From Rubrobacter xylanophilus (GTDB lineage: Bacteria; Actinomycetota; Rubrobacteria; Rubrobacterales; Rubrobacteraceae): a stretch of 64,000 nt of DNA. This document shows positions 40,524 to 46,306 of this stretch, piece after piece. How positions within the stretch are numbered: the first letter of the stretch is position 1; each line of letters opens with the position of its first letter. The DNA lies in contig NZ_AP019791.1 of assembly GCF_007164525.1 (NCBI RefSeq), positions 2,839,501 through 2,903,500 on the forward strand. Reading direction: 5' to 3'. Made by a program: the position numbers and the translations under genes. The notes under the pieces were generated by a model that was not told the origin of the DNA, made no database searches, and was given only the letters and a program-made list of their open reading frames with translations.

Positions 40524-40642
40524 CTCCTCCTCTTCTGCCTCCCGCCGGAAAACCTACCACGGCGAGCGGCCGCTTGCGCGGGGCCGGGAGCGGCTGTAGG
40601 GTGAGACGGCGTTCGCGAGGAGAGGAAGGAGGTTTCCGGGGC

Positions 40643-41536
40643 GTGGAGATCCTGCCGGGCATCCACAGGATAGAGTCAGATCTCGGTCCCCGCTTCATGT
40701 GCCAGTACCTGCTCTTCGGGGAGGAGCGGCGGGTGCTCGTGGACACCGGGATAGCGGGGACGCCGGAGAGGGTCATCCTCCCGTACCTGCAGAGCCTCGG
40801 GCTCGGCGCCGGAGACCTCGACGAGGTCATCATAAGCCACGCCGACCTCGACCACTGCGGGGGCAACCGGGCGCTCAAGGAGAGAAACCCTTCTCTCAGG
40901 ATCTCCTGCGGCGAGCCGGACCGCCCGTACGTCGAGAGCAACCAGACGATGCTCGCCGGGCTCTACTGCTGGACGGAGCCCTACGGTTTCGGGCCCGATG
41001 AGGCGGCCAGGGAGGCGATCCTGAGGGACCTCGGCGGCGACTGCCCGGTCGACGCCGGGCTGCGCGGCGGGGAAACTTTGAGGCTCGGCCCCGGCTGGCG
41101 GGTCGAGATCCTGCACCTGCCCGGCCACACCCCGGGCCACCTCGGCCTGTGGGACGCGCGCAGCGGAGCCGCGATAATCATCGACGCGGCGCTGGAGCGC
41201 GGCATCTACGACCGGGAGGGGAGACGCCTGATCCCTCCGCGCTACTTCGACGCCGCCGCCTACGAGCGCACCCTGCGCTTTCTGCTCGCCCTGCGGCCGC
41301 GCCACCTGCTCACCGCCCACTACCCCCCGATGGACGAGCGGGAGGCGGAGGGTTTCCTCCGGCGCTCGCTGGAGTTCGTGGGGAGCATGCGGGACCTCGT
41401 CCGGAGTTCCCTGCGCGAGGGGACGACCGACCTCGAAGAGCTCACCGCCCGTGCCGACGCCCGGCTCGGCCCCTACCCCCAGTCCGCCTTCGAGCTCGCG
41501 GCGGGGATCAGGGCGCACCTGGCCGAGCTCTCCTGA
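40643..41536 (+). CDS. Metallo-beta-lactamase-fold hydrolase
   Basis: 297 aa. Zinc site HADLDH (66-71), PGHTPGH (~165) and a later IIIDAALE segment are intact. The group includes lactonases and thioesterases, and a sugar lactonase role would suit its place beside the pentose-acid genes. The GTG at 40643 follows AAGGAGG and begins at [12 protein letters not shown], the segment also found in the chimeric relic at 31433. It precedes the dehydratase gene by 35 bases. Confidence 0.87.
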   Translation: MEILPGIHRIESDLGPRFMCQYLLFGEERRVLVDTGIAGTPERVILPYLQSLGLGAGDLDEVIISHADLDHCGGNRALKERNPSLRISCGEPDRPYVESNQTMLAGLYCWTEPYGFGPDEAAREAILRDLGGDCPVDAGLRGGETLRLGPGWRVEILHLPGHTPGHLGLWDARSGAAIIIDAALERGIYDREGRRLIPPRYFDAAAYERTLRFLLALRPRHLLTAHYPPMDEREAEGFLRRSLEFVGSMRDLVRSSLREGTTDLEELTARADARLGPYPQSAFELAAGIRAHLAELS

Positions 41537-41571
41537 AGAGAACGGATCGAGACGTATATGGAGGTGCATGC

Positions 41572-42774
41572 ATGAGCGCTCCCAGGATAACCCGGGTGGA
41601 GACGGCCGCGATCCGGGCGGTCGGCCCCTCGGTGCTGGTCAGGGTGTGGGCCGGGGACGAGCACGGCCTCGGCGAGTGCTACCCCTCGGCCCCGGCGGCG
41701 GGGATCCACCAGATCGTGATGAACATGGAGGAACAGCTTCTGGGGGAGGATCCCCGAGACGTCGAGCGGCTCTACGAGAAGATGCGCCGCTGGAACATCT
41801 TCACCGGGGGCCAGGCGGGCGCGGTCATAACCGCCCTCTCGGGGATAGAGATCGCGCTGTGGGACCTCGCCGGCAAGCTGCAGGGCGTCCCCGTCTACCG
41901 GCTGCTCGGCGGGGCCTTCCGGCGGCGCGTCCGGCTCTACGCCGACTGCAACGCCGGGACGGTGGACGCCGCCGCCCACCACATAGAAGGCGGGCTCTTC
42001 GAGGAGGGGAGCAACGAGGCGTACATCTCCGTCGCCCGGGAGGCGATCGAGCGGGGTTTCGACGCCATAAAGCTCGACGTGGACGACATCACCGGCCCGC
42101 TGCACCGGGACTTCTACAACGGCGGGATCTCCCCGAAGGAGCACGAGGCGATGGTGGAGCGGGTCGCGGCGGTGCGCGAGGCGGTCGGCCCGGAGGTGGA
42201 GGTGGCCATAGACATGCACGGCCGCTTCGACATCCCCTCCTCGATCCGCTTCGCCCGCGCCATGGAGCCCTTCGACCTGCTCTGGCTGGAGGAGCCCACC
42301 CCACCGGAGAACCTGGATGCCCTCGCCGAGGTGCGGCGCTCCACCTCCACCCCCATCTGCGCCGGGGAGAACGTCTACACCCGCTTCGACTTCCGGGAGC
42401 TCTTCGCCAAGCGGGCCGTGGACTACGTGATGCCCGACGTGGCCAAGTGCGGCGGCCTCGCCGAGGCGAAGCGGATCGCGAACCTCGCCGAACTGGACTA
42501 CATCCCCTTCGCCCCCCACAACGTCTCGAGCCCCGTGGGCACCGTAGCCGCCGCCCACGTCTGCGCCGCCGTCTCCAACTTCTCCGTGCTGGAGTGGCAC
42601 GCCATAGATATGCCCCACTGGGAGGATTTCGTCCGCTACGCCGGCGGCAGGGTCATCCGGGAGGGGCACATCGAGCTCACCGAGGAGCCGGGGCTGGGTC
42701 TGGAGCTGAACGAGGAGGTCGCCCGGGAATACCGGCACGAGAAGGGCGGTATCCCGTTCTTTGGTCGCGGGTGA
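41572..42774 (+). CDS. Enolase-superfamily (mandelate racemase-like) sugar-acid dehydratase
   Basis: 400 aa with an N-terminal capping domain and a TIM barrel. Catalytic Lys region FDAIKLDVDD, metal ligands in AIDMHGRFD, LWLEEPTPPEN and CAGENVYTR, and a catalytic His in FAPHNVSSPVGT are present. The family dehydrates xylonate, arabinonate, fuconate and similar acids to 2-keto-3-deoxy acids. Placed beside the FAH-fold dehydratase and semialdehyde dehydrogenase, a pentonate is the likely substrate. ATG follows GGAGG by seven bases. Confidence 0.9.
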   Translation: MSAPRITRVETAAIRAVGPSVLVRVWAGDEHGLGECYPSAPAAGIHQIVMNMEEQLLGEDPRDVERLYEKMRRWNIFTGGQAGAVITALSGIEIALWDLAGKLQGVPVYRLLGGAFRRRVRLYADCNAGTVDAAAHHIEGGLFEEGSNEAYISVAREAIERGFDAIKLDVDDITGPLHRDFYNGGISPKEHEAMVERVAAVREAVGPEVEVAIDMHGRFDIPSSIRFARAMEPFDLLWLEEPTPPENLDALAEVRRSTSTPICAGENVYTRFDFRELFAKRAVDYVMPDVAKCGGLAEAKRIANLAELDYIPFAPHNVSSPVGTVAAAHVCAAVSNFSVLEWHAIDMPHWEDFVRYAGGRVIREGHIELTEEPGLGLELNEEVAREYRHEKGGIPFFGRG

Positions 42775-42804
42775 GGCTCGGGAGCGGCGGAGGGGTCTTC
42801 CCGA

Positions 42805-42825
42805 CCGGGCCGTAGGGCGGCCCGG
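42805..42825 (+). terminator. Possible terminator after the dehydratase gene
   Basis: CCGGGCC and GGCCCGG form a 7-bp stem with a short loop, followed by CGTTTG. The T-run is weak, so termination is uncertain. Confidence 0.35.
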
Positions 42826-42878
42826 CGTTTGCGGGTTACCCTGTTGGGGGGCAAGACGTACCGGAGGTCGGAGGTGAG

Positions 42879-43418
42879 ATGATCCGAACCGGCGACGAGA
42901 TGTCCATCGTGGAGGGCCTGGAGCTGCGGACCCCGGACGGCGGCCGGACCACCCTGCACGAGGTGTGGGGCGGCGGACCCCTGGTCCTGTGCTTTCTCAG
43001 GCACCTCGGCTGAATATTCTGCCGCCAGTGGGTCGCGCAGTTGCGCGGCGCGGGGAGAGAATTCGAGCGGCGGGGGGCCCGGGTCGCGCTGGTGACGCCG
43101 GCGACACCCGAAGAGACCCGCGAGTTTTGCTCCGGACTCAGGTTCTCGTGCCTCTCCGACCCTTCGAGGGAGGCCTACCGGGCCTTCGGCATCCGGCGCG
43201 GCGGGCTCGGGAGCGTGGTGCTCCACCCCGAGAACCTCAGGCGGGGAATGCGCGCCCTCGCCGAGGGGCATCGCCAGGGGAGGACCGCGGGCGACGTGTG
43301 GCAGCTGCCGGGTGCCTTCGTGATAGACCGCGAGGGAAGGTTCCGCTACGCGCACTACGCCCGGCGCTCCTCGGACAACCCTCCCGTGCGCGAGCTGCTC
43401 GCGGCGCTTGACGGGTAG
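42879..43418 (+). CDS. Selenocysteine-containing peroxiredoxin-like protein (AhpC-TSA_2/SelU-like), UGA at codon 45
   Basis: 179 aa if the TGA at 43011-43013 is read as selenocysteine (Sec). The frame runs unbroken from ATG 42879 (GGAGGTGAG upstream) through TGA to TAG 43418. The product has the thioredoxin-fold order of AhpC-TSA_2/PRXL2 proteins: VLCFLRHLG-U-IFCRQW, then ALVTPATPEETREFC, LSDPSREAYRAFGI and QLPGAFVIDREGRFRYAHYAR. Cysteine homologues carry GCxFCR, so Sec45 replaces the first Cys of CxxC and Cys48 remains. A strong hairpin lies at the right distance downstream. The role would be thiol-dependent reduction of peroxides or disulfides. A nonsense-mutated gene is the alternative. 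Confidence 0.8.
43032..43049 (+). promoter_or_regulatory. Bacterial SECIS-like hairpin
   Basis: GTCGCGC-AGTT-GCGCGGC folds into a 7-bp stem (one G-U pair) with the tetraloop AGTT. The loop starts 26 bases after the TGA, inside the 16-37 base range known for bacterial SelB-binding SECIS elements, and it contains the usual G-U in the loop. It lies inside the coding region, as bacterial SECIS elements do. Confidence 0.65.
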
Positions 43419-43430
43419 CCCGGGGCGCGG

Positions 43431-44213
43431 CTAGGGTGGCGTCTCACCTCCCCCGGCGCGCGCCCTGCGGTATTCGGAGACCATCAGCTCCGTGAGCTCC
43501 TCCACCGAGGTCTCCTCCGCGGGCCGGTCGTAGCCGATGCGCCCGTGCTGCAGCACGTTCACCCGGTCGCAGACCTCCAGCACGTGGGCGTAATTGTGGG
43601 CGATCAGGATGATCGAGACCTCCCCCTCCTCCTTCAGGCGCTGGACGAGGTCCAGGATCATCGCCCCCTCCTTGGCCCCCATGGCCGCCAGCGGCTCGTC
43701 CATGAGCAGGATCTTCGCCTCAGAGTAGACCGCCCGGGCCACCGCTATGGCCTGCCGCTGACCCCCGGAGAGCATGGCCACCTCGGTGTCCAGCGAGGGG
43801 ATGTTGATACCGATGTCCGAGAGGTAGCGGCGGGTGAGCTCCCGCATCCTGCGGTTGTTGAGGAAGGGGAGGGGGCGGCGGGTGATCTCCTTGTTCAAAA
43901 ACATGTTGTGGTAGACGCTGAGGTCGTTGACGAGCGCCAGATCCTGGTAGACGGTCTGGATGCCCAGGGCCTGCGCCTGCGAGACGGAGCGCAGCTGCAC
44001 CTCCTCGCCCTCCAGGACGATCCTCCCGGAGTCCGGGCGGTGGAAGCCGGTGATGATCTTGATGAGCGTGCTCTTGCCCGCCCCGTTGTCCCCGATGAGC
44101 CCCAGCACCTCTCCCCTGCGCAGCCGCAGCGAGACGTCCCGCAGCGCCACCACGCTCCCGAAGCGCTTGGAGATGTTCTCTACCCGCAAGACCTCCGGCG
44201 CGTCCGGTCTCAT
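43431..44213 (-). CDS. CUT2-type sugar ABC transporter ATPase (single domain, FrcA-like)
   Basis: 260 aa. Walker A GDNGAGKST, signature LSGGQRQ, Walker B ILLMDEPLAAMG and H-loop LIAHNY are present. Most CUT2 ATPases have two fused domains (~500 aa); this one has one, like FrcA of fructose transporters. It energises uptake with the permease and binding protein encoded upstream and overlaps the permease gene by ATGA. Confidence 0.93.
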   Translation of the reverse strand: MRPDAPEVLRVENISKRFGSVVALRDVSLRLRRGEVLGLIGDNGAGKSTLIKIITGFHRPDSGRIVLEGEEVQLRSVSQAQALGIQTVYQDLALVNDLSVYHNMFLNKEITRRPLPFLNNRRMRELTRRYLSDIGINIPSLDTEVAMLSGGQRQAIAVARAVYSEAKILLMDEPLAAMGAKEGAMILDLVQRLKEEGEVSIILIAHNYAHVLEVCDRVNVLQHGRIGYDRPAEETSVEELTELMVSEYRRARAGGGETPP

Positions 44214-45214
44214 GAGGGCGCCCTCCTCCCCCGGCGCAGCCTGCCGACGTAGATGTTGAGCACCATCACTATCAGGACGGCCACCCCGAGGATGATGTTG
44301 AACTCGTTGGCGTTGACCCCCTGCAGGGTGAAGCCGTTGCGCAGGATGGAGATCACCAGCGTCCCGATGAACGCCCCGATGACCGTCCCCACCCCGCCCG
44401 CGAGCGGGGTCCCCCCGATGACCGCCGCCGCGATGGCGTAGAACATGATCTCGGCCCCCCCGACGAGCGGGTCTATGGAGTCTATGCGCATCGCCTCGAT
44501 GATCCCGGCGAACCCTCCGAGCGTGCTGCAGAGCATGAAGTTGCCGATCCTTATGCGGTCCACCCGGATGCCGGCCTCCCTGGCCCCGGTGAAGTTGCCC
44601 CCGGTGGCGAAGGTGTGGATGCCCCAGCGGGTGTGGTTGAGCACCGCGTGCATGACGATCATGATGCCGATGGCCCACAGGATCCCCGCGTAGGGGTAGG
44701 CCCCGAGCGCCTGCTTGAGCGCGCTCTCCTCGGGGGCGGAGCGGGGGAAGCCCCCGGTGAGGATGACGTTGAGCCCCCCGAGCAGGAAGAAGGTCCCCAA
44801 CGTGCCCACGAACGACGGGACCCCGAAGTACACCCGCAGCGCCCCGTTGACGAACCCCACGACCGCCGTCGCCGCGAGCGCCACCGCTATGGCGAGCGGG
44901 AGCACGAGCAGCAGCCGCTCGTAGGCCAGGTACATGACGATGGGGGCGAACCCGTAGGCCTGCCCGACCGAGAGGTCTATCTCCCCCAGGATCATGACCA
45001 TCACCAGCCCCACCGCGATGATGGCCGTGGTGGCGGCGAACTGCGCCAGCGCCCGGATGTTGCCCTGGGTGAGGAAGGCGGCGTTTGCGGCCTGGAAGTA
45101 CACCACGAGCGCCACGGCCACGACGAAGATGCCGGCCTCCCGCCTCTCCAGCAGCGCGCCGGAGAGCCGGGGCAGCAGCCTTTCCCGCCCGCCGGTTGCG
45201 CTCTGTCCGGCCAT
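44210..45214 (-). CDS. CUT2-type sugar ABC transporter permease
   Basis: 334 aa with 8-10 membrane helices of the RbsC/FrcC family. Key segments are GLVMVMILGEIDLSVGQ near the N-terminus and GGTPLAGGVGTVIGAFIGTL near the C-terminus. It forms the inner-membrane channel. It starts four bases after the binding-protein stop, and the order binding protein-permease-ATPase equals frcBCA. Confidence 0.94.
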   Translation of the reverse strand: MAGQSATGGRERLLPRLSGALLERREAGIFVVAVALVVYFQAANAAFLTQGNIRALAQFAATTAIIAVGLVMVMILGEIDLSVGQAYGFAPIVMYLAYERLLLVLPLAIAVALAATAVVGFVNGALRVYFGVPSFVGTLGTFFLLGGLNVILTGGFPRSAPEESALKQALGAYPYAGILWAIGIMIVMHAVLNHTRWGIHTFATGGNFTGAREAGIRVDRIRIGNFMLCSTLGGFAGIIEAMRIDSIDPLVGGAEIMFYAIAAAVIGGTPLAGGVGTVIGAFIGTLVISILRNGFTLQGVNANEFNIILGVAVLIVMVLNIYVGRLRRGRRAPS

Positions 45215-45217
45215 CCC

Positions 45218-46306
45218 CTACGACGCCGGCGCCTCGAGCAGCCGCGGCCGCTCGGAGTCGCCCTCGTAGCGGGACTCGGTCTCCAGGTACTGCCCGGCGT
45301 CCTCCTGGGTGACGAACTTGAGCCCGGTGTTGGTCTCGGCCGGGCCGGTGAGCCCCCCGGAGATCTTGTACAGGTACAGCTGCAGCACCGGGTAGAAGCC
45401 CTGCAGGTAGGGCTGCTGGTCTATGGTGAAGTCTATGTGTCCTTCCCGCAGGAGCTGCAGCGTCTTGGGCAACAGGTCGTAGCCGCCGGCCCGCACCCCC
45501 TGCTCGTGCAGGCCGTACTTCTGCATGACCTGCGCCACCCCCTGGGTGCTCCCGGCGTCCACCGCGAACATCCCCCGCACGTCCTTGTGCCCCTGGTAGT
45601 ACGCGTCGATCCTGTTGAGCTCCTCGGGCAGCTCGGCCCCGGTCTCTATCTCGTCGTACTCGATGGGCGCCCCGGAGTCCTCGATGGCCTGTATGGCCCC
45701 GTCTATCCGGGGCTGGATGTTGAGCTGGCCCTTGGTGGCGATGAACAGCGCCACCGGCCCCTCCTTCACGAGCTCCACGATCCGCTTGCCCATCTCCACC
45801 CCGGAGAGGAAGAGATCCTGCCCGATGTACGCCAGCGCCGGGTTGGTCCCCGAACCCCTCCCGTTGGCGTTGTACGCCACCACCGGGATGCCCTGATCCA
45901 GCGCCCGCTGGATCGGATCGTTGAACGCCTCCGGATCCACGATGGAGACCGCTATCCCATCGGCGTTCCCGGAGATGGCCGTGTTCATCGCATCCACCAT
46001 CTCCCGTACCACCGAGGTCTCCGACCCCGTCCACTGGTACCGGGTCCCCAACAGCGCGCTGGCGTCCTCGATGCCGTACTGCGTGGGCGTGAAGAAGGGG
46101 TTCGTCGTGACGTGGTTCACGAATACGAAGTTGTACTCGGGCGTCTCGGGAAAGTTCCCCACGCCCCCGCCACCGTCACCCTGCTGACCCCCCTCCTCGG
46201 TCCTCCGGCAGCCGCCGAGCAGGAGCCCCGCCCCCGCCAGAGCCCCCGCGGCCAGAAATTCCCGCCGCCCCAGCCTGTAACCGCCAAGACCACCAGATGA
46301 CTCCAT
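45218..46306 (-). CDS. CUT2-type sugar-binding protein (Tat/lipoprotein signal)
   Basis: 362 aa. The N-terminus GRREFLAAGALAGAGLLLGGC combines a twin-Arg motif and a lipobox Cys, so the protein is probably exported folded and lipid-anchored. The mature part is a type I periplasmic-binding fold: FVNHVTTNPFFTPTQYGIED, GIPVVAYNANGRG, YIGQDLFLSGVEMGKR and TIDQQPYLQGFYPV, as in ribose/fructose-type binding proteins. The preceding promoter carries the FadR-type operator, so its sugar is likely the regulon's substrate. Confidence 0.93.
   Translation of the reverse strand: MESSGGLGGYRLGRREFLAAGALAGAGLLLGGCRRTEEGGQQGDGGGGVGNFPETPEYNFVFVNHVTTNPFFTPTQYGIEDASALLGTRYQWTGSETSVVREMVDAMNTAISGNADGIAVSIVDPEAFNDPIQRALDQGIPVVAYNANGRGSGTNPALAYIGQDLFLSGVEMGKRIVELVKEGPVALFIATKGQLNIQPRIDGAIQAIEDSGAPIEYDEIETGAELPEELNRIDAYYQGHKDVRGMFAVDAGSTQGVAQVMQKYGLHEQGVRAGGYDLLPKTLQLLREGHIDFTIDQQPYLQGFYPVLQLYLYKISGGLTGPAETNTGLKFVTQEDAGQYLETESRYEGDSERPRLLEAPAS

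Follow-up and report, generated by a model that had tools for sequence, protein, structure and literature searches.

A probable UGA-decoded selenoprotein of the SelL/PRXL2 type in Rubrobacter xylanophilus, with a covarying SECIS-type hairpin

Introduction

Eukaryotic selenoproteins carry their SECIS element in the 3'-UTR. Vertebrate SelL has two selenocysteine (Sec) residues, two apart (PMC3316567). Selenoproteins with a UxxC motif, described as Prx-like thiol:disulfide oxidoreductases, have been recorded since 2005 in the Sargasso Sea, GOS and bacterial surveys (PMC1088965, PMC2398784, PMC1794560). An AhpC/TSA family selenoprotein (cd02970 / PF13911) has been listed with UxxS (PMC9312934, PMC13188914), and an actinobacterial AhpC-like selenoprotein, that of Blastococcus saxobsidens, inserts Sec at UAG by means of a CUA tRNA-Sec (PMC5330540). 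Rubrobacter xylanophilus itself has already been credited with five selenoproteins (PMC1794560).

We analyzed a stretch of 64,000 nucleotides of the R. xylanophilus genome (the window), in which a gene on the forward strand (42879-43418) is interrupted by an in-frame TGA. The predicted product differs from vertebrate SelL in its UxxC motif, its single Sec and its bacterial, in-gene SECIS. It has the motif and the general fold of the bacterial UxxC Prx-like thiol:disulfide oxidoreductases, groups that were defined on PF00578/COG0450-type proteins. The cd02970 entry belongs to the same Pfam family, with UxxS there and UxxC here, and the Blastococcus gene reads UAG, whereas the window gene has UGA, matched by a UCA anticodon. 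The PRXL2/SelU family (PF13911), which includes human PRXL2B, has the Pfam family and the position of the cysteine pair in common with the window protein, although PRXL2B is only about 23% identical. The gene is probably a further, unannotated member of a selenoprotein family that is already recognized.

Results

The reading frame and its single internal TGA

The frame at 42879-43418 encodes 179 amino acids followed by a TAG stop. Directly 5' of its ATG lies GGAGGTGA (42870-42877), a likely Shine-Dalgarno sequence with a GGAGG ribosome-binding site. The only internal stop is a TGA at codon 45 (43011-43013), the predicted Sec and first residue of the UxxC, within the protein sequence VLCFLRHLG-U-IFCRQWVAQLR; the TGC of Cys48 follows at 43020-43022. 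The initial annotation had described one open frame with the TGA placed on the first Cys of the active-site motif, and had expected standard gene finding to return the downstream 125 codons alone. All of this was borne out: Cys homologues align on codon 45, and the sole conventional ORF in the frame is 43041-43418 (125 codons), opened by a TTG (43041-43043) that lies within the hairpin described below. Selenoprotein genes are often mis-annotated as truncated ORFs, and this one would be made to start falsely at a TTG belonging to the SECIS loop. TGA also serves as an ordinary stop in this DNA, as the upstream mandelate racemase family gene ends with TGA at 42772-42774. A promoter scan gave no useful result, and an Rfam scan of 42500-43700 returned chance microRNA matches with no SECIS family among them.

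The selenium machinery of the genome

The genome (one contig of 3.02 Mb, completeness 100) encodes the genes that had been named as a check on the selenoprotein claim, and all of them were present. The tRNA-Sec (68.9 bits, gathering score 47; ARAGORN anticodon TCA), selB (325 bits, cut-off 242) and selA (500 bits, cut-off 268) stand side by side at G000:C1:1198663-1201966, and selD (342 bits) is found at C1:358873-359775. The selD gene carries an in-frame TGA of its own at the classical Sec site (STKAG-U-ASK), as does the gene for a formate dehydrogenase alpha subunit (C1:1856887; QARI-U-HSSTVPSLG). With tRNA-Sec, selA, selB and selD all present, and TGA in both selD and formate dehydrogenase, the Sec pathway has all its parts and serves at least two other genes. 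The window gene would be the third UGA-decoding gene found in this genome, where families were searched by name.

Conservation of the UGA

Codon 45 is TGA in about 30 homologues across Actinomycetota, at identities down to about 30%, and is Cys (TGC/TGT) in dozens of homologues from many phyla. A search of 60 relatives recovered two species of a sister genus, G014 (64% identical) and G002 (59%); in each, the frame has no TAA or TAG and its only TGA falls on codon 45. A more distant relative, G055 (41% identical), has its single TGA at this codon, and so does each member of a tandem gene pair in G059 (32-33% identical). Searching 396 Actinomycetota genomes with a profile gave many further homologues, most of the strong matches having TGA at codon 45, while a pattern search requiring Cys at the site gave 76 Cys homologues (Armatimonadota, Verrucomicrobiota, Myxococcota, Bacteroidota, Chloroflexota and others). 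Plasmids yielded relatives at 29-35% identity only. The genome of a genus-mate, G001, lacks the gene; its sole match encodes another peroxiredoxin, in which the site is Ser, and has no TGA. In G059 (L024:911-2019) each tandem copy has its own TGA and AGTT loop, and a gene for a luciferase-like monooxygenase comes after the pair.

Between G014 and G002, dN was 0.12 and dS 0.47 upstream of the TGA (dN/dS about 0.26), and 0.055 and 0.31 downstream of it (about 0.18). As dN is well below dS in this pair, both flanks of the TGA are under purifying selection. The initial annotation had judged nonsense decay unlikely and had looked to close relatives for scattered stops; the shared TGA, the absence of in-frame TAA/TAG and these ratios agree with that judgement. 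Apparent scattered stops in six relatives (L139, L140, L143, L144, L146 and L156) were rejected, the extra TGA and TAA being normal gene-end stop codons.

In a tree of 88 sequences, none of them PRXL2A/SelU, the window protein forms a group with the Sec proteins of the two sister-genus species (support 100/99). The Sec/Cys label switches about nine times over the tree, and at least six of these switches are forced by well-supported branches. A selA match was obtained in 22 of 26 genomes with a Sec form, compared with 14 of 24 without a strong homologue, a co-occurrence that is weakly informative; the four Sec-form genomes with no selA match are all multi-contig drafts. Two sister genomes of one genus differ, G174 having TGA, CAGTTGCGC and selA, and G154 having TGC, CAGCTGCGC and no selA match.

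A covarying hairpin downstream of the UGA

A candidate bacterial SECIS apical hairpin, GUCGCGC-AGUU-GCGCGGC, is formed on the forward strand by a 7-bp stem (43032-43038 with 43043-43049) and the loop AGUU (43039-43042). The stem starts 18 nt past the UGA and the loop 25 nt past it. The initial proposal of a 7-bp hairpin with an AGTT loop at the distance of a bacterial SECIS, within 43011-43060, was thus correct. The published bSECIS constraints are a loop of 3-9 nt, a stem of 4-16 bp, a G within the first two nucleotides of the loop, a spacing of 16-37 nt from the UGA and an MFE of -7.5 kcal/mol or lower (PMC13188914). Here the loop has 4 nt with G second, followed by U, the stem has 7 bp, the distance is 25 nt and 43014-43055 folds at -17.6 kcal/mol. 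In such GC-rich DNA, single-sequence folding made the hairpin no more stable than shuffled sequence (z -0.9 and -0.3). Because this was not decisive, we used comparative tests, and significance is drawn from the conserved TGA codon and the covariation of the hairpin.

The AGUU loop is invariant in all 22 Sec homologues of the window type, which have Gln-Leu at this place. On their alignment RNAalifold predicted exactly the 43032-43049 helix; 94.8% of the hairpin cells were paired (86.0% in shuffles), five of the seven pairs had compensatory double changes (stems such as GUCGCGC/GCGCGAC, CUGGCGC/GCGUCAG and ACCGCUC/GAGCGGU), and none of 500 shuffles reached the covariation score. When the register was slid, paired cells dropped to 11-55%. 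The Leu codon in the hairpin is TTG in 22/22 Sec homologues with Gln-Leu but in only 3/9 Cys homologues; CTG is used in 6/9 of the latter, and their stem is mostly missing or degenerate. TTG is rare, making up 10 of the 321 Leu codons counted in genes of the window, and its presence in the Sec forms is explained by the bases that the AGUU loop requires. The AGUU hairpin, kept with its TTG in every Sec form of this type and mostly lost in Cys forms, offers a comparative signature for gene finding and for tests of SelB recognition in Actinomycetota.

A second Sec clade (L157-L169, L026, L155; FLRHAG-U-LICR..HLVKV/M) carries a conserved silent hairpin of another kind, CACCU-CGUGA-AGGUG, whose loop starts 20 nt past the UGA; 96.7% of its cells are paired and three pairs are doubly changed. 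We found no description, in open-access text, of AGUU-type and CGUGA-type hairpins within one family. We hold it somewhat better than an even chance that, in Actinomycetota, one family signals Sec by two distinct conserved hairpins at a near-identical place, with the residue (Sec or Cys), the hairpin and, for one pair of sisters, selA switching together. If this is true, the family is a natural experiment on SelB recognition and on the loss and regain of Sec. The nearest Cys relative of the window protein (47%), from a Chthonomonadaceae MAG (L054:3109), retains GCGCAGTTGCGT and a stem of 4 bp, which may be left over from a recent replacement of Sec by Cys.

Family and predicted fold

The protein matches Pfam AhpC-TSA_2 (PF13911; 57.2 bits, cut-off 27), Pfam AhpC-TSA and, over residues 14-176, the NCBIfam 'SelL-related redox protein' NF040769 (146.8 bits, cut-off 120). 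AlphaFold2, run with a 37-sequence alignment, predicted a thioredoxin fold (pLDDT 96.5, pTM 0.92), in which U45 opens the first active-site helix after a core strand, where thioredoxin folds usually have their active site, with C48 three residues on. The best solved structural match is human PRXL2B, the prostamide/PGF synthase (9usa, TM 0.75/0.82). Its C44/C47 pair aligns with U45/C48 of the window protein, C48 being the predicted resolving residue. SelL proper is defined by two Sec in UxxU, and the window gene has one TGA and UxxC; the site reads RHLG-U-IFC and departs from the classical peroxiredoxin motif PxxxTxxC/U. The initial label 'SelU/PRXL2-like' holds at the superfamily level (AhpC-TSA_2, PRXL2B fold); the named family that fits best is NF040769. 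Because that model matches above its curated cut-off, we would class the product as a UxxC selenoprotein of the SelL/PRXL2 type and not as a strict SelU (PRXL2A).

Discussion

The selenium genes, the shared UGA, the covariation of the hairpin and the predicted fold support the initial annotation of a probable selenoprotein with UGA in a U-x-x-C site, and on this sequence evidence we consider it highly probable that codon 45 is read as Sec. SelB carrying Sec-tRNA-Sec would bind the mRNA hairpin at 43032-43049 downstream of the UGA, which would then be decoded as Sec, and not as a stop, to give a 179-residue selenoprotein. The predicted product is a thioredoxin-like domain of the PRXL2/SelL type whose first active-site helix has U45 at its N-terminus. 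The selenolate of U45 would most likely attack a peroxide or a disulfide, C48 would resolve the oxidized U45 as a selenenyl-sulfide, and a thioredoxin-type reductant may then re-reduce it. A selenolate-based enzyme resolved by C48 is proposed because of the fold, the PRXL2B match and the C44/C47 alignment. The fold and the motif further suggest, less certainly than Sec insertion itself, a thiol-dependent peroxidase or thiol:disulfide oxidoreductase.

Other accounts of the TGA have to be weighed against Sec insertion. A recently inactivated Cys gene, in which a point mutation turned TGC or TGT into TGA and the remainder is still undecayed, would suit the one-base distance from TGC and the lack of an intact copy in genus-mate G001. 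It is nonetheless very improbable and is refuted by the TGA conserved in independently assembled genomes (about 30 homologues, to about 30% identity); the frame has no TAA or TAG, in the sister pair dN stays well below dS upstream and downstream of the TGA, and the hairpin covaries in Sec forms but is lost in most Cys forms. A sequencing or assembly error from TGC to TGA, which would take a single-base difference only, has a negligible probability. The same TGA recurs in the sister species and in tens of other assemblies, accompanied by the rare TTG and the hairpin, and the comparative data make an error untenable. It is likewise extremely improbable that the UGA is a genuine stop and that the TTG at 43041 serves as a separate start for the 125 codons downstream. 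A mechanical ORF does exist from that position, yet its product would be without the first strands and without the entire CxxC motif, the TTG is accounted for by the hairpin, and the 44 codons upstream of the TGA are conserved and form part of the fold.

A different alternative accepts Sec insertion and concerns the enzymatic part of our explanation only: the product may be a disulfide oxidoreductase (ResA/TlpA-like) or a prostamide-synthase-like reductase, and not a general peroxidase. We regard this as a substantial possibility, somewhat short of even. Structures of ResA and DsbE, too, fit the profile and the fold, the UxxC group is named 'Prx-like thiol:disulfide oxidoreductase' in the literature (PMC1794560, PMC13188914), and the best solved match is a prostamide/PGF synthase. 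Against it, the sequence, read by eye, has no evident signal peptide or membrane segment. A peroxide role is weakly favored by gene order in the sister genus g2, where in both species the gene is preceded by a Mn-catalase, hinting weakly at peroxide defence, and followed by a 143-aa ORF of unknown family; a search for a conserved operon found neither neighbor at the window copy, in G055 or in G059.

In the window (40574-46306), the selenoprotein gene has the mandelate-racemase-family gene on one side and a sugar-type ABC transporter operon in convergent orientation on the other; dehydrogenase genes are close by, and the selenoprotein gene looks like an insertion into a region of carbohydrate catabolism. 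In Rubrobacteraceae relatives (L030, L038, L041, L045, L047, L049), TGA stands in place of the first Cys codon of a separate Prx-like family, FYRGDW-U-PYCNGQL, which appears to be one more selenoprotein family of this lineage.
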